Below are positions 1-42,602 of a stretch of DNA of 43,337 nucleotides, one piece after another. Source of the DNA: Candidatus Nomurabacteria bacterium (GTDB lineage: Bacteria > Patescibacteriota > Minisyncoccia > Phycocordibacterales > UBA9973); NCBI GenBank assembly GCA_023267275.1, contig JAHFNO010000011.1, forward strand, positions 1 through 43,337, read 5' to 3'. Both the position numbers and the translations under genes were made by a program. The notes under the pieces are model-generated. The model had not been told where the DNA came from. It ran no database searches and saw only the letters and a program-made list of their open reading frames with translations. How positions within the stretch are numbered: the first letter of the stretch is position 1; every line of letters begins with the position of its first letter.

Positions 1-865
1 AGATACCCCAGTAGTCCACGCCCTAAACGATGTTCTCTCGCTTTTCGGAGTATCGACCCTCTGAGAGGCTTAGCTAACGCGATAAGAGAACCGCCTGGGA
101 AGTACGATCGCAAGATTAAAACTCAAAGGAATAGACGGGGACTCGCACAAGCAGTGGATTATGTGGTTTAATTCGATGGTAACCGAAAAACCTCACCAAG
201 GTTAGAAATCCAAGTGAAGAATGCAGAAATGCAAACGTCCGCAAGGACTCTTGGACAGGTGATGCATGGCCGTCGTCAGCTCGTGGCTTGAGCTGTTCCC
301 TTAAGTGGGGAAACGAGCGCAACCCTCGTCGTGTGTTACAAGTGTCACGCGAGACCGCCCAGTACTTTGCACATAAATGCAAAGACTAGACGGGAGAGTT
401 ATGTTTATGACGACACCAAGTTGAACAAATAACAAAAAGTAGAAAGAAATATCAAAAGAGAATAACTCTTCAAATCAGTATTTGATTCATTTGTGAATAA
501 AGTACTGGGAGGAAGGAGAGGATGACGCCAGGTCAGCATGTCCCTTTGATACCTTGGGCTACACACATAATACAATCGTCACTACAGTAGGCTGCAATAC
601 CGTAAGGTGGAGCCAATCCTAAAAAGTGGCGTCAGTTCGGATAGAGGTCTGCAACTCGACCTCTTGAAGCTGGAATTGCTAGTAATCGCAGGTCAGCAAA
701 CTGCGGTGAATACGTTCTCGAGTCTTGTACTCACCGCCCGTCAACTCAAGGGAGCCGGTAGTACCCGAAATCTCCACATTTGTGGGGCCTACGGTAAGAT
801 CGGTGACAGGGAGTAAGTCGTAACAAGGCACGGGTAGCGGAAGCTGCTCGTGGATTACTTCAAAT
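1..865 (+). rRNA. rrs: 16S ribosomal RNA, 3' portion (truncated by window edge)
   Basis: The window opens inside 16S rRNA at the conserved segment around E. coli 785 and continues through the region near 910-930 (AAACTCAAAGGAATAGACGG, the Parcubacteria-type variant), the 1400 region and helix 45. Helix 45 is intact: an 8-bp stem closes a GGAA tetraloop at about 832-851. Downstream of it the usual GGATCACCTCC is replaced by GGATTACTTC at 852-861, so the anti-Shine-Dalgarno core is altered. The piece is about 100 nt longer than expected because of an insertion at 367-500. No 23S, 5S or tRNA gene follows before the next protein gene. The 3' end is placed by homology only. Confidence 0.97.
367..500 (+). 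other. 134-nt insertion in 16S helix 40 loop
   Basis: Helix 40 is preserved and extended (CCCAGTACT at 358-366 pairs with AGTACTGGG at 501-509), and its normally tiny loop is replaced by about 134 nt of AT-rich sequence. The insert has internal hairpins (TTTGCA/TGCAAA near 366-384; AGAGTTAT/ATAACTCT near 393-471; AATCA/TGATT near 474-488) and no ORF. CPR 16S genes often carry insertions, some of them self-splicing introns. This one lacks visible group I core motifs and is short, so it is probably an expansion segment or an excised spacer rather than an autocatalytic intron. Confidence 0.75.
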
Positions 866-1160
866 TGAATTCTGTTTATCTTTTTCGCCTCGGCATGAAG
901 ATAAATTATGTCCTAAACCAAATACTTCGTATTTGGTCGGACGAGGAGTCGGTTTTTTGTGCCTCAATTGAGCACAAAAAGGTTTTCTCAATACCTACAA
1001 TGAGAGGACACTGGCTAAAACATTTGTTTACAAATGTTCGCCCGTCCGTCGTAAGACGGATGAGGGAAAGACCTAGAAAAATGGGCATGAACGGAACAAA
1101 ATAAAGTGTTGTACTCAAACAAAAAACCATATCAAACGATATGGTTTTTTGTTTTGGTCT
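866..1160 (+). other. 16S trailer with hairpins and terminator
   Basis: No protein gene is convincing here. Two composite hairpins follow the 16S. One, at 913-951, is CTAAA, then CCAAATA/TATTTGG, then a linker ending in a T-run. The other, at 1015-1062, is CTAAA, then ACATTTG/CAAATGT, linker TCGCCCG, then TCCGTC/GACGGA. The second resembles the hairpin-pair module found in rnpB and the tRNA intron, read on that strand. The segment ends with the terminator listed separately. It is probably the processed 3' trailer of the rRNA transcript. Confidence 0.5.
1119..1153 (+). terminator. Rho-independent terminator after 16S
   Basis: AAAAAACCATATC and GATATGGTTTTTT form a perfect hairpin followed by T-rich sequence. 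It ends the 16S transcript without any 23S in the unit. Confidence 0.8.
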
Positions 1161-23620: not shown

Positions 23621-23659
23621 AATATTCCCCTGTAGCTCAGCGGTAGAGCAATCGACTGT

Positions 23660-23983
23660 CAGTAAGGCAGCTTCCTAGAGAAATCTAGGTCGAAAACGAG
23701 GTGAACTCGGTGAAGCCCCCCCTAAAACTTTTGTTTACAAAAGTTCGGGCGACCAATTGTTATAATTGGTTTAGTCTATGATTTTATGGGTAATACCGAG
23801 CCAAGCTCTGATGCAAATCAGAGAAGGTGTAGAGACTATCCCCGCCCGAACGTACCTTTCTGGTACGGGCAGGCCTTTATGGGAGTACTCCGACATTCTG
23901 TCGGCGGAAGCGCCTCGCTCCTCAATCATGTAAATGATAGGAGATGATATAGTCCACCCCTTTAAGTAATTTTAGGACAAGTG
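23660..23983 (+). other. Group I self-splicing intron (324 nt) in tRNA-Asn
   Basis: Exon 1 ends in U and the intron ends in G, as required for group I splicing. GCAG near 23667 can pair with exon CTGT (terminal U.G wobble) as P1. The P7 strands are visible as GACTA (in GTGTAGAGACTATCC, near 23830) and TAGTC (in GATATAGTCC, near 23950). There is no endonuclease ORF. A 53-nt hairpin-pair module (23722-23774) sits in a peripheral position. Confidence 0.88.
23722..23774 (+). repeat. Hairpin-pair module, copy 3 (in the group I intron)
   Basis: Outer CTAAA/TTTAG; hairpin 1 ACTTTTG-TTTA-CAAAAGT; linker TCGGGCGA; hairpin 2 CCAATT-GTTAT-AATTGG. The linker matches the rnpB copies exactly, while both arms of hairpin 1 differ in a compensatory way. 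Confidence 0.85.
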
Positions 23984-29905: not shown

Positions 29906-30123
29906 CACAACCGAATATGTGCGCAGTAACCTAACCCGTCGAGCAATCGGCGGTATGGCGAAAGTGAGTCGTATAAGGCACAAAGAACCCAACATGTTGG
30001 GGTTGCCTTATACGCCGCATCTGGAAACGGGTGCGCAGGGTTTAATAGCCCTGACCTACGTGTTGGGTTTTTTGCGTCCCAAAACAGGATTTACAAATAG
30101 CATCGCAAAACAAAAAGTAGAGT
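29906..30123 (+). ncRNA. Pseudoknotted leader RNA, copy 1
   Basis: After a TATGCT -10 (29894-29899), the leader holds P1 CCGTCGA-GCAA-TCGGCGG (29936-29953), P2 GTATAAGGCA (29971-29980) with TGCCTTATAC (30004-30013), P3 GCATCT/GGGTGC (30017-30034) and P4 CAGGG/CCCTG (30036-30053). In the P2 loop, AACCCAACATG (29986-29996) pairs with CGTGTTGGGTT (30059-30069), forming a pseudoknot followed by a T-run. It ends with GGATTTAC-AATAGCA before the ATG at 30124. The homologous copy 2 is on the minus strand at 39561-39770. Confidence 0.75.
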
Positions 30124-30516
30124 ATGGGAAAAGTAATCTTGGGAATTGTAGGAGTAATAGCCGTAATTGCCTTCATTGGAAATCTTGGTGGGTCATCGAG
30201 TCCGTCGAGTACAAGCACACCGGCTCCATCGACCAGTGTTGCCATTGGAGAAAATGGATACCTCCGAAACTCGGCAAATCCAATCATGGTTCCAATCAGC
30301 AAGTCGATTTTTGACGAGACGATGAAGCTCTCTGTCGCTGGCGATACCGCAGGCCTCGCTCGCATGGTAGTGGCAGGAGAAATCTTGATGGTCGATAACG
30401 GCACGCAAGTGAAAGTCATCGACAAAAACTTCGCTTCAACCGAGGTTCGGATTATGAGTGGCAAAAACTATGGAGAGTCCGGATGGGTTCCTATGGAGTT
30501 TGTTTCCAAAAATTAG
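30124..30516 (+). CDS. Secreted or membrane-anchored small protein with SH3-like domain
   Basis: The 130-residue protein has one N-terminal membrane helix (about 3-21) and a Ser/Pro/Thr linker (22-40). A small beta domain (60-130) includes GTQVKVIDKNFASTEVRIM and YGESGWVPMEF, resembling bacterial SH3 domains. It is preceded by the pseudoknot leader. Function unknown. Confidence 0.75.
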   Translation: MGKVILGIVGVIAVIAFIGNLGGSSSPSSTSTPAPSTSVAIGENGYLRNSANPIMVPISKSIFDETMKLSVAGDTAGLARMVVAGEILMVDNGTQVKVIDKNFASTEVRIMSGKNYGESGWVPMEFVSKN

Positions 30517-34268: not shown

Positions 34269-35978
34269 TTATAACGTTCTGAACTCGTCCGTCCGAGGGA
34301 GCAGAGTAGAAAAAACAGGCGAAATTTCGCTTGTTTTTTTGTTTAAGCTTTTGTTTACAAAGCAATTTTTAGGTTCGAACTTATCATCTTTCGACTTTGC
34401 CTTTTTTATACCTTCGATCAGCTTGTTTATAGCTTTCGTGTTGCAAATACTGAGTTCTTTCTCATCCCACACTAGGTTCGAACCAAGCTTGGCCAAGATA
34501 GTCCTTTTGGCCTGAACCGTACCTTTTTTCAAAGTTTCCGTAAGACAGAGAGTAAGATCGACGATCTCGTTCATTCTTGCATACCAATCGACATCGTCCT
34601 TCTCGCCCTCATTCACATGGTATTTTTTTTCTAACGCCTTCAGATCGAGTGCGTATTCTTCAGGGCTGACTTGCTCGTCGCGCAACATTTCGCGCAAGCG
34701 AGTTTTCTTATGATCAAACTCCGCGTTGTTTGACTCAATCATTTTCTTTTTAAAAATCTTGTCGTTGATCTCCTTCTCCTTTAGCTCCTCGATGTATTGC
34801 TTCGACCAGTTGGCTAGATCGACAGAAAAATTCAAATTTTCTTGAACAAAGTGAATGACCTTTTCCAATACCTTGTTTTCGGGAATTGACACATAGTCCA
34901 ATTTCGACTTTTTCTTTTTTACGTTGTAATAGTGAACATACCCTAAATATTTAGGGTGCTGTAGTTGCGTAATCTCTCTACCGCACTGAGGACAGTGCGT
35001 TTTACTTCTATACGCAAACTTATGCTTGCAGTCACAGATAAGCTGATATTTCACGTCCTGCCCGATGAAATTACCCTCAGGAGAAGCTATAAAGCCGGAA
35101 AATATTGTTTTATGTTCCTGAGTTTTCGGTATATTGTTTCTGGCAATAATCATTTTAATTTTATTGTGTTGATCCTCTGTAATCAGCCGAGGCAGTTTTG
35201 GATCAAGTTCAAATCTCTCGCCCTTACTATCAAAGAAAAATCCTGCGTAAACTGGGTCTGGGAGCAATTCATAAATACGGGAGTGAGCAATGAAATGCCC
35301 ACCAATTTTCTTTCGTTTTATCGTGTTTAATTTCAATTCATTAATAGCGTATTCATATATTTTCCCGGCCGAGTATGTACCTGTTAAAAACATATCAAGT
35401 AGAATTTTTATTTTAGGCAATCTCTCTTCGTCTACCATCCACCTGCGGTTTCCCTTTTCCTCAGTTCTATCATTCAAAAAACCCAGAGAAGAAATTCCGT
35501 GCGGCACACCAAGTCGAGCTTTCTTATCGTGGCCGCGCTTAACGTTTACTGAAAGTTCTTTAACAAATTGTTTTCCCTGGCTAAATTCGACAGACATGAC
35601 GATCACGTTGTCCCAAGGATAGAACACTTTATCGTGCGTTATTATTGCCTTCAGGACACCTGAGGAAAGGAGATCAATGATTTGCCCACCCTCCGTCATA
35701 TTTCGAGCGAGACGGTCGAGTTTCCAACAGACAATGCTATCAATCTCACCCTTGAGGATCATCGACATCATGCGCGAGAACTCGGGACGCTCGTTTTCGG
35801 TTTTTGCAGATTTTGCTTCTTTGAATACTTCCGTAAAAACAGGAAGCTTGTGGTACTCGGCCATTTTTGCCGCCGCGTCGATTTGTGAGTCGATCGAGAG
35901 CATCTGCTTGTCCTCCGCTTCGCTTGATTTACGATAGTAGCCGCCGGGGCGTAATTTTGTGAAATCTAATGGGTTCAT
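34269..35978 (-). CDS. Second large serine recombinase
   Basis: The 569-residue protein has a resolvase domain with catalytic Ser18 (YYRKSSEAEDKQ) and WKLDRLARNMTEGG. A recombinase domain follows (about 150-290; GVPHGISSLGFLND, HSRIYELLPDPVYAGFFFDSKGE), then a zinc ribbon (CDCKHKF, CPQCGREI) and a coiled coil (420-470). It is only distantly related to the integrase at 23972, so it belongs to a different element or a composite island. Confidence 0.93.
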   Translation of the reverse strand: MNPLDFTKLRPGGYYRKSSEAEDKQMLSIDSQIDAAAKMAEYHKLPVFTEVFKEAKSAKTENERPEFSRMMSMILKGEIDSIVCWKLDRLARNMTEGGQIIDLLSSGVLKAIITHDKVFYPWDNVIVMSVEFSQGKQFVKELSVNVKRGHDKKARLGVPHGISSLGFLNDRTEEKGNRRWMVDEERLPKIKILLDMFLTGTYSAGKIYEYAINELKLNTIKRKKIGGHFIAHSRIYELLPDPVYAGFFFDSKGERFELDPKLPRLITEDQHNKIKMIIARNNIPKTQEHKTIFSGFIASPEGNFIGQDVKYQLICDCKHKFAYRSKTHCPQCGREITQLQHPKYLGYVHYYNVKKKKSKLDYVSIPENKVLEKVIHFVQENLNFSVDLANWSKQYIEELKEKEINDKIFKKKMIESNNAEFDHKKTRLREMLRDEQVSPEEYALDLKALEKKYHVNEGEKDDVDWYARMNEIVDLTLCLTETLKKGTVQAKRTILAKLGSNLVWDEKELSICNTKAINKLIEGIKKAKSKDDKFEPKNCFVNKSLNKKTSEISPVFSTLLPRTDEFRTL

Positions 35979-37133: not shown

Positions 37134-37162
37134 TTGACATTTTAACAAAAATGGTATATAAT
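37134..37162 (+). promoter_or_regulatory. Consensus promoter, cassette copy A
   Basis: TTGACA (37134-37139), 17-nt spacer, TATAAT (37157-37162): a perfect sigma-70-type promoter, among the strongest in the window. Confidence 0.85.
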
Positions 37163-37170
37163 GTAAGAAA

Positions 37171-37225
37171 GATTAGGAAATAACGGAGTGATCGAAAATT
37201 TCGATCTTTGCGCTATTTCTTAATC
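37171..37225 (+). promoter_or_regulatory. 5'-terminal mRNA hairpin, cassette copy A
   Basis: Lower stem GATTAGGAAATA (37171-37182) with TATTTCTTAATC (37214-37225); apical stem GATCGAAA/TTTCGATC (37190-37206). It starts at the predicted 5' end of the transcript. Copy B at 38198-38259 has a related lower stem and a different apical stem. Confidence 0.8.
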
Positions 37226-37249
37226 TTAAACACTTTTAAATAGATAATT

Positions 37250-38050
37250 ATGAGCAAGTTAAATCCCGGGAACATCAGTTCCTCTACCGACGAAGGTCGT
37301 CGTTATTTTGTGAACGCAGATGGTACATCCACTGTTATCTGGCACCCAAATTCCCCATATCCTAGAAATATCTACGCTATGTTGGAAAGTGGTGGGTATA
37401 TGGGAATGTCATTTGGCTTCACTGGCGGAACAAGTGGACACACCCTTAAAGGAGACGTGTTCACGCTGTACGTACCGTGTGAGATGGTTTTCAGGGAGGC
37501 ATTGGTTCCACCGCGTGCGTTGTATGAGTCATCAACTTTTCTTTTCAACGAGGATTGTATTGATGATTTGAATGGAGTCCGCTATGACGACTATGTTAAG
37601 TTCCGTAAGGACACCTACAAACTTTTCCCCGGCAAAGGGCTGATGAAAAGAGGTGAGAAACTAACGTATGCTGAAATAGAGACACCTCAACGCTACAACG
37701 AGGGTGACATAGTATTAATTGTAGCTGCTCCTGATGAGGAAGGAGTCAAAATGGCGCAATCTATTATGTTACGGAAAGGAGAGACAGAAGTTGTTTTGCC
37801 AAGCACGAATATGCTCGACAACGACTGGGTGCCTACCGCTCCACTGGAAGAGATGCTTACATGGTTTCCCGAGAAAGAAGAATTTACGTTACAAATGCAG
37901 GGCGATGACTACGGGCTTGAGCAGAAAGAGTTAAACCCTCTTCCTGCCTATCTCGAAGGAAAGTGCATTAAAGCATTTGAGTACGTGAAAAAACCGTTTT
38001 CGGACTATGAGATTGTAGGTAAGAAGGCTCTGCCTTCACCCGTTTCTTAG
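37250..38050 (+). CDS. Hypothetical accessory protein, 266 aa
   Basis: A soluble cytoplasmic protein with no signal peptide or membrane helix, with Gly- and aromatic-rich stretches (SGGYMGMSFGFTGGTSGHTLKG) and a long acidic middle. No family is recognised. It is expressed from a consensus promoter with a 5' hairpin and its own terminator (38118-38147), an arrangement repeated for the 89-aa gene that follows. Strong expression is inferred from the promoter. Confidence 0.8.
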   Translation: MSKLNPGNISSSTDEGRRYFVNADGTSTVIWHPNSPYPRNIYAMLESGGYMGMSFGFTGGTSGHTLKGDVFTLYVPCEMVFREALVPPRALYESSTFLFNEDCIDDLNGVRYDDYVKFRKDTYKLFPGKGLMKRGEKLTYAEIETPQRYNEGDIVLIVAAPDEEGVKMAQSIMLRKGETEVVLPSTNMLDNDWVPTAPLEEMLTWFPEKEEFTLQMQGDDYGLEQKELNPLPAYLEGKCIKAFEYVKKPFSDYEIVGKKALPSPVS

Positions 38051-38116
38051 GGAGAATAAGAAAAAAAGGTAGTAGCACAAATCCCTTTCGTAAACTTGTG
38101 CAAAAAATATTTAAAG

Positions 38117-38150
38117 GCCAGTTTCATTCATTTGGAACTGGTTCTTTTTT
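38117..38150 (+). terminator. Terminator, cassette copy A
   Basis: CCAGTTTC, ATTCATTT, GGAACTGG then TTCTTTTTT. The loop and tail resemble those of the copy B terminator at 38577-38610. Confidence 0.8.
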
Positions 38151-38157
38151 ATGATTA

Positions 38158-38186
38158 TTGACATAATCATTTTTATACTATATAAT
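38158..38186 (+). promoter_or_regulatory. Consensus promoter, cassette copy B
   Basis: TTGACA (38158-38163), 17-nt spacer, TATAAT (38181-38186). Confidence 0.85.
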
Positions 38187-38197
38187 GTGGACGAGCA

Positions 38198-38259
38198 AGT
38201 TAAGAAATAGCAGAGCATTTGAAAAGACAAAAATTCAAATTTTTTGCTATTTCTTAACT
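38198..38259 (+). promoter_or_regulatory. 5'-terminal mRNA hairpin, cassette copy B
   Basis: AGTTAAGAAATAGC (38198-38211) pairs perfectly with GCTATTTCTTAACT (38246-38259); apical ATTTGAA/TTCAAAT (38217-38240). The lower stem is homologous to copy A, the apical stem differs in sequence but not in position. Confidence 0.8.
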
Positions 38260-38284
38260 AAAACAACTTTAAAATTTCACCTTT

Positions 38285-38554
38285 ATGGACACGAACGATA
38301 AGAATGTATCGGCATTAATTAATGGGGCACTTACTTCTAACGGGAATAACAGCTACTGCTTCAAAAGCTCTGCAGTTAACCCCGGCCTCGGCATGGTACT
38401 TTGTTCACTTTCTGAATTTACTGCTGACAGAAAAATTGAAGTTACCAGCGAAAGATCGAAAGGAGAACTGAGAGGAGCACCTGTTATTCTGGCAACGTTC
38501 ACTGTTGCGGAAGACAAGCTCGCTGCTTTCGAAGAAAAATACAAGGAGAAATAA
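38285..38554 (+). CDS. Hypothetical small accessory protein, 89 aa
   Basis: A soluble protein with an N-terminal Asn/Ser-rich part and a C-terminal charged alpha-helix (EDKLAAFEEKYKEK). No family is recognised, and no clear similarity to the 266-aa neighbour is visible by eye despite the shared regulatory cassette. Confidence 0.75.
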   Translation: MDTNDKNVSALINGALTSNGNNSYCFKSSAVNPGLGMVLCSLSEFTADRKIEVTSERSKGELRGAPVILATFTVAEDKLAAFEEKYKEK

Positions 38555-38576
38555 TCCCCTTGCAGCGAATATTAAG

Positions 38577-38612
38577 ACCGGTTTCATTTATTTGAAACCG
38601 GTTCTTTTTTAT
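38577..38612 (+). terminator. Terminator, cassette copy B
   Basis: ACCGGTTTC, ATTTATTT, GAAACCGGT followed by TCTTTTTT. Confidence 0.85.
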
Positions 38613-38912
38613 TTACCCCAAAATCTTCGCCTTGTGCGCCTTGAACTCGTCCTCGGTAATAGCTCCATCCTGCTTCAGCTTGAATAACTCTGCAAGCTCA
38701 CTCGCAGTGTTCTTGCTTGGTTCGGTCGTTTTGATTACTACCGCCGGTGCTGCATCTTTCGAGAGTGCCCACGACAAAGCGACGATCCAGCCGATGCACG
38801 TCCATCCTAGGAAAAAATTAACTACGAGAATTGAACTCGCGTTTTTCTTTTTGCGCGAGTACGCCGAGATCGAGGGAATAAAATATAAAATTATGAGTAA
38901 AAATATCAACAT
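38613..38912 (-). CDS. Superinfection-immunity-like membrane protein with SHOCT domain
   Basis: The 99-residue protein has two membrane helices with the signature of the T4 Imm-type superinfection immunity family (LYFIPSISAYSRKK, then NFFLGWTCIGWIVALSWAL). A C-terminal SHOCT motif follows (AELFKLKQDGAITEDEFKAH). Family members block DNA entry by related phages. The start at 38912 (MLIFLLII) is preferred to the longer 38984. The SHOCT sequence is nearly identical to that at 31257-31625. Confidence 0.85.
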   Translation of the reverse strand: MLIFLLIILYFIPSISAYSRKKKNASSILVVNFFLGWTCIGWIVALSWALSKDAAPAVVIKTTEPSKNTASELAELFKLKQDGAITEDEFKAHKAKILG

Positions 38913-39074
38913 GGGGGTATTTTTTGTAAAAATTGGTAATAGTGGGCGGTCACGCGGGGCGACGCTTGCCCACGTTCGCCACACGTTGCGCCACGTGCCG
39001 ACATTCTCGGCAGATCGGTATCATTTACCGATCAGGGCAATTTATACCCCACGTGCGCGAACATGGTGCGAGGG
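38913..39074. other. Short intergenic gap with hairpin
   Basis: A hairpin GATCGGTA/TACCGATC is at about 39014-39034, likely the terminator of the pilin-like gene read from the right. Nothing else is seen. Confidence 0.45.
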
Positions 39075-39560
39075 CTAGAGGCAGGAAGTCGCCGAACCGA
39101 GAGGATAGCTCTCAACTTTCGCTACGCCGGTCGAGTCGCTACAAGCGTACTCGCTGTTATCGCTGAGTGGCGCAGATGCCGCCCATGCCGATCCGTCTTT
39201 TGCCTCGTTGCAGACGTGCCTGTCCCTTCCGGCGATTTCTGCGCCACTGAGCAAGTGCAAGAAATCCGCATCGGAACACACGCCCTTGTAGGTCGCATCG
39301 TTACCGGTCGAAGAGTAATACAATTCGGCTTGTGCGCGAGCTGAAGACATTACGCCTTGGATTTTTGCATCCATCGCAGTGCTACGCGCGCTGTCCAAGC
39401 TGTCGGAAACGGCACTGCCGAGCGTGTCGGTAATGACGTGCTGTATCTGGTACGACTTGTATTCCATACCGATCAAAAATCCGATGAGTAAAAGCACAAT
39501 CGAAAAAACAATTTTCCCTGTCTGCGTTGCAAAGAACTTGTCGCTGTCGCTTTGGTTCAT
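39075..39560 (-). CDS. Membrane-anchored pilin-like protein, 161 aa
   Basis: One membrane helix (about 16-34) is followed by a region matching the globular part of CPR type IV pilins: DAKIQGVMSSARAQAELYY, then Cys-containing GVCSDADFLHLL, AWAASAPLSDNSEYAC and a final Cys. The canonical prepilin leader and N-terminal pilin helix (FTLIELLV-type) are absent, replaced by an ordinary anchor, so assembly into a pilus is uncertain. It is preceded by pseudoknot leader copy 2. Confidence 0.7.
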   Translation of the reverse strand: MNQSDSDKFFATQTGKIVFSIVLLLIGFLIGMEYKSYQIQHVITDTLGSAVSDSLDSARSTAMDAKIQGVMSSARAQAELYYSSTGNDATYKGVCSDADFLHLLSGAEIAGRDRHVCNEAKDGSAWAASAPLSDNSEYACSDSTGVAKVESYPLGSATSCL

Positions 39561-39770
39561 ACGTTTTACTTTTTTGTTGCTATTAGTAAATCCGAGGAAC
39601 GGGCAACAAAGAACCCGTCACAGAGAGCGAGGGGTTTTAATCCCTCCATACACCTTTCGATGTACGGCCAACAACGACAGCCCCCGTATGACGGGTTCTT
39701 TATCGTTGTTGGTCTTTTTTCACCATACCGTCGATTGCTCGACGGGTTAGGCTACTCGTATTCAGTTGTG
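39561..39770 (-). ncRNA. Pseudoknotted leader RNA, copy 2
   Basis: Plus-strand positions: P1 CCGTCGA/TCGACGG (39728-39745, loop GCAA when read on the minus strand); P2 arms 39668-39677 and 39703-39712 (CCAACAACGA/TCGTTGTTGG). The pseudoknot arms, 39608-39621 and 39688-39701, share a perfect complementarity of at least 13 bp including GAACCCGTCA. Two further hairpins at about 39625-39665 correspond to P3 and P4. Both P2 and the pseudoknot differ in sequence from copy 1 but keep pairing. A TATACT -10 is at 39781-39776. Confidence 0.75.
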
Positions 39771-41373: not shown

Positions 41374-41943
41374 ATGCACCATCATCACATCTACGATTTT
41401 TTTAATAACGCTTCGGTCGCTGGAATCATCACTGTAGCCCTCGGAGGTCTAGCTGGTCTTTTCATCTACCGAAACCAGAAAGACATCGACCGACAGTATT
41501 CTGCTCAGGAGAAAGTCGGCGAAGCTCTCATGCTTCTGGTAGAGCATTGCAAGGTGGTAAATCAGTCCTTGCACCGCCTGACGAAAACCTTTGCTATGGT
41601 TGTAAAATCGAACGATAAGGAGCGCATGGATCGCTTCATGGACGAATCTTTACCTTACGAAACAAAGATATTTGTAGAGGCTCTCATGTATAAAATACCC
41701 GACGATATGAGCAAAATCGAAAGCATGATCGCTCTGTATTTCAATGATAATGAGTGCCTCAAAAATGCCCACAAAGAAATCTTCATCAAGCTCAAAGCTT
41801 GGCACGATTTCATCGGCGAAAACGGATTTGCTTCTGGTGCTTTTCCAATCACAAAACAAGTCCCCGATGTTCCTGAACTGTCTCTCGACGGTCTTACCGA
41901 CTCAGTCAAAGAGTTTATTAGCATAATGAAGAGTCACTCCTAA
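41374..41943 (+). CDS. Hypothetical membrane-anchored helical protein, third gene of the operon
   Basis: The 189-residue protein starts with four His, has one membrane helix (about 14-31, SVAGIITVALGGLAGLFIY) and a long cytoplasmic helical domain. No family is recognised. Its stop codon (TAATGA) overlaps the start of the fourth gene. Confidence 0.75.
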   Translation: MHHHHIYDFFNNASVAGIITVALGGLAGLFIYRNQKDIDRQYSAQEKVGEALMLLVEHCKVVNQSLHRLTKTFAMVVKSNDKERMDRFMDESLPYETKIFVEALMYKIPDDMSKIESMIALYFNDNECLKNAHKEIFIKLKAWHDFIGENGFASGAFPITKQVPDVPELSLDGLTDSVKEFISIMKSHS

Positions 41944-42602
41944 TGAATGACCGAATGTTTAATGAGAAAATGGTGAGCTGTAGAGCACTTCTACTTCTCC
42001 AGAATACAGCGATTACAAACATCCTTGAAAAGCGTCTTGTCTTTGAACGACTAGACGCGATCATAAAAGCAAATGAGCAATTAAAAGTCTACAATATATT
42101 CTGGGACTGGTATTTTTATAACTACATCGACTCACAAGTGATGGAACTTATGAGGATTTTGGATCAGGACGAATCTTCGAAAAACTTTACTCGCTTGCTC
42201 GACTCATTACTCAGCGGAGCGACTGTTGACGCGGGATTTTTCACAAGAATCCACGAAGCACTAAAAAGCGCTTCGGGCATGGCGAGTCCGATGTTTGATT
42301 CACTTGTACCATTACTTACCACTGCTGAAATAGAAGCAGACAAAACGCTTCTTGAAAGCGAGACGAATGTTGTTCTAGTCAGAAATTATAGAGACTGGAA
42401 AGTTGCCCACAACGATCCACAGAAATGGGAGAGGCTTGGACTCAACCTTGCAAAACTAAATGAGTGCATTGATCTTGTTCACGAGAAAGTCCGTCGCTAC
42501 GAGCTTTTCCTAAATGGTAGTGGTTATCCTGATACTGGTCTGACCCCAACCATCACCTATGACTGGGAAGCTATTTTCAGAGTACCTTGGATAAATAGTT
42601 GA
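41943..42602 (+). CDS. HEPN/AbiU2-like protein, fourth gene of the operon
   Basis: The 219-residue all-helical protein has a pattern reminiscent of the HEPN_AbiU2 family: FWDWYFYNYIDSQVMELMRI followed by a run with LLDSLL, and a later VRNYRDWKVAHNDP. The R-D-x4-H motif in RDWKVAH fits the HEPN nuclease motif Rx4-6H. HEPN proteins include RNases and abortive-infection toxins. The family match is by eye. Genetic coupling to two membrane proteins would fit a defence or toxin-type system, which is inference. Confidence 0.55.
   Translation: MNDRMFNEKMVSCRALLLLQNTAITNILEKRLVFERLDAIIKANEQLKVYNIFWDWYFYNYIDSQVMELMRILDQDESSKNFTRLLDSLLSGATVDAGFFTRIHEALKSASGMASPMFDSLVPLLTTAEIEADKTLLESETNVVLVRNYRDWKVAHNDPQKWERLGLNLAKLNECIDLVHEKVRRYELFLNGSGYPDTGLTPTITYDWEAIFRVPWINS

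Follow-up and report, generated by a model that had tools for sequence, protein, structure and literature searches.

In Bacillus subtilis, a hairpin located at or near the 5′ end of a transcript stabilises the mRNA (reviewed in PMC3997798). RNase J acts from the 5′ end (PMC3997798), and in Escherichia coli RppH is impeded by a 5′ hairpin (reviewed in PMC3997798). The leaders of E. coli ompA and papA and of B. subtilis aprE, in which a hairpin near the 5′ end is followed by a single-stranded region before the start codon (PMC3997798), resemble the two leaders described here, and by analogy any stabilisation of our two units would be expected to operate via the 5′-end pathway. The resemblance does not extend to sequence, which is unrelated, and the present case differs in that related hairpins and terminators accompany two genes that have nothing in common. 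Unlike the hosts of those leaders, this host apparently does without Shine-Dalgarno pairing. The 3′ end of its 16S rRNA (window positions 851-866) reads GGATTACTTCAAATTG instead of the usual GGATCACCTCC, and thus the anti-Shine-Dalgarno sequence is missing. There is also no enrichment of Shine-Dalgarno-like words before genes.

The genome is 1.02 Mb long in 33 contigs, with a GC content of 0.406, and uses the standard code (stop codons TAA 479, TAG 170 and TGA 71). Its small size, the group I introns of its 16S and tRNA regions and its LOOT RNAs would suit a member of the Patescibacteria/CPR. The window, meaning the whole stretch of 43,337 nucleotides that was analysed, is contig 3. It contains two adjacent units in the same orientation, unit 1 at 37134-38152 and unit 2 at 38158-38612, and in each the order is promoter, leader hairpin, open A/U-rich stretch, ORF and intrinsic terminator. 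Their features are as follows.

37134..37162, plus strand: unit 1 promoter, TTGACA-17-TATAAT, 12/12 consensus positions
37169..37227, plus strand: unit 1 leader hairpin, MFE -26.3 kcal/mol, z -5.78, beginning at about the predicted transcription start
37228..37249, plus strand: unit 1 A/U-rich stretch before the ATG, with a CTTTTAAA box, unpaired in the fold
37250..38050, plus strand: unit 1 ORF, a 266 aa orphan protein without a match in family searches
38109..38152, plus strand: unit 1 intrinsic terminator block, an 11-pair stem followed by CTTTTTTAT
38158..38186, plus strand: unit 2 promoter, TTGACA-17-TATAAT, 12/12 consensus positions
38198..38259, plus strand: unit 2 leader hairpin, MFE -26.9 kcal/mol, z -6.35, with 26-nt arms that are 88% complementary
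38260..38284, plus strand: unit 2 A/U-rich stretch before the ATG, with a CTTTAAAA box, unpaired in the fold
38285..38554, plus strand: unit 2 ORF, an 89 aa orphan protein without a significant family match
38569..38612, plus strand: unit 2 intrinsic terminator block, an 11-pair stem followed by CTTTTTTAT

Both promoters are therefore as an earlier, sequence-only reading of this DNA had described them, each with the exact hexamers and the 17-nt spacing. The terminator block of unit 2 adjoins a convergent minus-strand gene (38613-38984), whose product matches superinfection-immunity and SHOCT families. As judged from its sequence, the whole arrangement is ordinary in its probable mechanism, and it is the pairing of two units that is unusual.

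The hairpins are 59-62 nt long, and no dinucleotide shuffle equals the stability of either fold. The window contains exactly two occurrences of a combined pattern of TATAAT plus the stem arms, against 0 expected. The distance from the -10 hexamer to the hairpin is 7 nt in unit 1 and 12 nt in unit 2, which places a stable hairpin near the 5′ end, as in stabilising leaders, where that end is the predicted transcription start. Between hairpin and ATG, 22 nt (unit 1) and 25 nt (unit 2) are unpaired in the MFE fold, leaving the initiation region open. The 5′-terminal hairpins of the sequence-only reading are thus strong ones, but its stem GTTAAGAAATA is not that of unit 1, which is ATTAGGAAATA, and the terminal position fits unit 1, which begins at about the expected start, better than unit 2, whose transcript probably carries about 5 unpaired nt before the hairpin.

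When the two hairpins are aligned, each of the 21 named pairs is a standard one in either unit. Fourteen are invariant, one shows a single-sided change from A-U to G-U, and six are changed on both sides, which bears out the co-varying stems that had been proposed, the apex included. The two-sided changes sit at the base, middle and apex of the hairpin, and none remains if the structure is shifted along the alignment by 1 to 3 columns. The six doubly changed pairs show that pairing has been kept between the units, although covariation between only two sequences speaks to this and not to the number of changes. A covariance model built from these two sequences scores 95 in the sense direction and 48.5 on the reverse strand. 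No Rfam family is found at either unit at its gathering threshold, and the best weak matches fall far below. The window does contain two LOOT RNAs (RF03000), one at 29928-30053 on the plus strand upstream of a same-strand ORF (30124-30516) and one at 39629-39753 on the minus strand upstream of a same-strand ORF (39075-39560). Like LOOT RNA, the hairpins of the two units are structured RNA elements upstream of genes; however, they differ from it in sequence and structure, and neither unit has a LOOT match.

The non-coding flanks of the two units are 72-85% identical. The terminator blocks, which had been called look-alikes, are 84% identical and specifically so. The unit 1 terminator scores 58 against that of unit 2, and no T-run outside the locus exceeds 32 (9535 T-runs, genome-wide); neither terminator has a better match in the genome than the other. 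For the unit 1 leader, the score is 42 with that of unit 2 and at most 21 with 47 other promoter-linked leaders. Random hairpins of the same make-up reach the similarity of the two hairpins in 6 of 5000 cases, and hairpin similarity by itself is therefore good, not overwhelming, evidence of common origin. On this sequence comparison, both flanks are related between the units, the terminators most clearly, and it is the terminators that weigh more than the hairpins for a common origin. The remaining shared parts are not specific to the pair. There are 15 exact-consensus promoters in the genome, so the promoter is not diagnostic. The sequences before the ATG are similar, as had been observed, but their A/U box is a genome-wide motif: words of the AACTTTA/CTTTAAA type are enriched upstream of genes throughout the genome, with AACTTTA found there 21 times versus once in a reverse-complement control, and CTTAAAA found just upstream of genes 16 times versus 0.

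The two proteins appear as unrelated as the sequence-only reading held them to be. BLASTP finds nothing between them (E 54), and there is no DNA similarity between the two ORFs. Searches with the 266 aa protein give no match in Pfam, PHROGs, PADLOC, NCBIfam or PDB, and no homologue among 147 genomes of the family, 397 of the order, viral contigs, phages and plasmids. For the 89 aa protein, the Pfam, PHROGs, PADLOC and NCBIfam searches give nothing significant, and viral contigs yield no homologue. Its possible relatives in family genomes (E ~0.01) proved, in those inspected, to be antisense or out-of-frame reads of another gene. Single-sequence structure models of the two proteins (pLDDT 30.7 and 49.7) are too low in confidence for fold comparison or search.

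We favour, with a probability of roughly 0.55, the interpretation that each unit carries a 5′ stem-loop leader that slows 5′-end-dependent decay, set in flanks of common origin around different ORFs. Near-ideal sigma-70 promoters would give short single-gene mRNAs, each beginning with the long A/U-rich hairpin or a few nucleotides before it, continuing through an open A/U-rich initiation region to the ATG, and ending at a strong intrinsic terminator. The hairpin would hide the 5′ end from RNase J and a 5′ pyrophosphohydrolase, yielding a long-lived mRNA, while the start codon downstream would stay accessible. Leader and terminator of both units would derive from a common source, and the differing ORFs would result either from replacement of one ORF following duplication or from copying of the flanks to another gene. 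We infer the transcription start, the mRNA stabilisation and the route of ORF replacement from sequence, and high, stable mRNA levels from both units are plausible. A stabilising leader is the most economical function because an RNase J-family nuclease, which acts from the 5′ end, is among the encoded proteins (TIGR00649, 491.8 bits versus a curated cut-off of 400), and because 5′ hairpins are known to stabilise. PNPase is also encoded. A motif search found no RNase E/G or RNase Y motif among the predicted proteins, which is a weak negative. Two RNase III-like proteins, recognised by motif only, could cut long stems, and this counts against the stabiliser model.

Simple tandem duplication with divergence, which the sequence-only reading had set against its own proposal, would involve one gene duplicated with both its UTRs, the coding regions then diverging beyond recognition under constrained flanks. 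In its favour, the two units lie side by side on one strand and resemble each other in both flanks, and rapidly evolving orphan proteins can lose similarity. However, neither BLASTP nor the comparison of ORF DNA reveals homologous proteins, of 266 and 89 aa, between flanks that remain so similar. Given that the two proteins cannot be aligned and that no homologue of either is detectable, this scenario is disfavoured, and we consider it doubtful. Divergence of an ORF to nothing beside such flanks would be unusual, and hence we prefer ORF replacement or flank copying. A different kind of explanation concerns function. Perhaps the hairpins are regulatory leaders, the stem being bound by a protein, RNase III or a small molecule that governs how both genes are translated or processed, so that they form a small regulon. 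The sequence of the middle stem, TTARGAAATA/TATTTCTTAA, is constant while base and apex co-vary, and the RNase III-like proteins noted above are encoded in the genome. Nevertheless, we judge this unlikely, given that no Rfam family fits, that no alternative terminator or anti-initiator pairing is visible and the region before the ATG is unpaired in the MFE fold, and that the stems of other hairpin leaders in the genome are mostly different.

The palindromes might instead act as DNA, either as recombination sites of a cassette array or as a miniature inverted-repeat element upstream of each gene. Long imperfect palindromes do lie beside orphan genes here, a serine recombinase gene is located upstream (34269-35978), and dispersed palindromic repeats occur in other leaders of the genome. 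The locus also recalls integron gene cassettes in that small orphan ORFs are accompanied by common palindromic non-coding sequence. The attC arrangement of such cassettes is RYYYAAC...GTTRRRY. The palindromes of the two units end in AAGATT...AATCTT (unit 1) and GTTAAG...CTTAAC (unit 2), without inverted core sites, and they lie not downstream of an ORF but upstream, inside the leader, with a separate promoter for each gene. In addition, no integrase was identified among the neighbouring proteins tested. The palindrome falls exactly between promoter and ATG in both units, it has no dispersed copies in the genome, and both its G-U pairs and the lower score of the reverse strand point to RNA. Thus, a role at the DNA level seems highly improbable.

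The sequence-only reading went further and proposed an expression cassette into which genes were exchanged. Its premises stand, in that the flanks are specifically alike and the proteins unrelated. A search for the hairpin in relatives, as it called for, returned no copy in 147 family genomes, with or without another ORF, and this genome has at most a possible distant third one; for this reason gene exchange itself is only something we infer. Covariance model matches outside the genome, among the same 147 family genomes, were terminator-like or chance hairpins in those read. No exact-pattern third copy is present in viral contigs, and a single exact-pattern match among genome contigs, on a Bacteroidetes contig, is a palindrome in apparent coding sequence beside an N-run.

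The sole candidate for a third copy is a leader hairpin at G000:C22:66119-66194, in front of a gene at C22:66240. This leader is the best leader match of unit 2, with a similarity that exceeds 5000 of 5000 hairpin-shaped nulls; against unit 1, 2697 of 5000 nulls score as high. Its terminator match is weak (ranks 5 and 26 of 9535 T-runs). By sequence, then, the gene is a possible distant third member. Its protein has homologues in other genera, and where their leaders are readable they lack the A/U hairpin. The best-aligning leader (L188, 49% protein identity) has retained another segment instead and has no A/U hairpin, and the hairpin may therefore have been added to C22:66240 in this genome. 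The GTAAAATAGC...GATAGCGAGGC segment of the C22:66240 and L188 leaders matches no Rfam family. A GTCCCCGTAAAATAGC...GATAGCGAGGC leader segment, found at L060:6092-6240 and in L188, is conserved between two genera, in each ahead of the gene for a homologous 223 aa protein, and likewise has no Rfam match.

A survey of genes with near-consensus promoters, from which dispersed-repeat leaders had been removed by eye, identified at least seven further promoter-linked genes with strong leader hairpins (z of approximately -4 or lower). Thus, the generic layout of promoter plus hairpin is wider than the two units, and a promoter from a sister species (G003, L088) is also followed by a strong leader hairpin. 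One of the seven encodes an asparaginase and another a protein that unites sigma-70 region 4 and an RNA polymerase alpha C-terminal domain; the other five have no confident family assignment. In six of the seven, TTGAAAA lies between promoter and hairpin, and within 50 nt of promoters this word is found 10 times versus 1.6 expected. The sister genome G004 has homologues of 555 of all 1124 genes (49%) but of none of the nine hairpin-led genes, a set chosen after the by-eye removal (p=0.004). Accessory genes are, however, common in any case among those with such promoters (25 of 83 have a G004 homologue), and because the difference from these promoter-matched genes has p=0.11, the idea that hairpin leaders mark accessory genes is suggestive only. 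A proposed excess of hairpin leaders here over relatives was not sustained (5 of 15 versus 3 of 29 exact-consensus promoters, p=0.10).

A broader and quite unlikely extension is that, in this lineage, matched hairpins and terminators form portable 'UTR cassettes' that are put on newly acquired or newly born accessory genes to provide a standard, stable mRNA, with units 1 and 2, and possibly C22:66240, belonging to one family. If leader hairpins were standard for accessory orphan genes in minimal, host-dependent bacteria, about whose mRNA stability and start-site choice very little is known, they would mark such genes in sequence and offer a direct, testable entry to their expression.

Several other features were encountered. 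The sigma-70 region 4/RNA polymerase alpha C-terminal domain matches lie in a 454 aa protein (L056:4130-5494, minus strand), for which 59 relatives yield no more than partial matches; its gene is preceded by a promoter of exact consensus and a strong leader hairpin. In the window, positions 23630-23660 resemble a tRNA 5′ half (GTAGCTCAGCGGTAGAGCA) that is not called by ARAGORN and lies within a long inverted repeat, and the gene at 41943-42602 (plus strand) has a HEPN AbiU2 match. There are also two group I introns, one close to tRNA genes (L011:6857-7101) and the other inside a 16S rRNA gene (L039:12177-12552).
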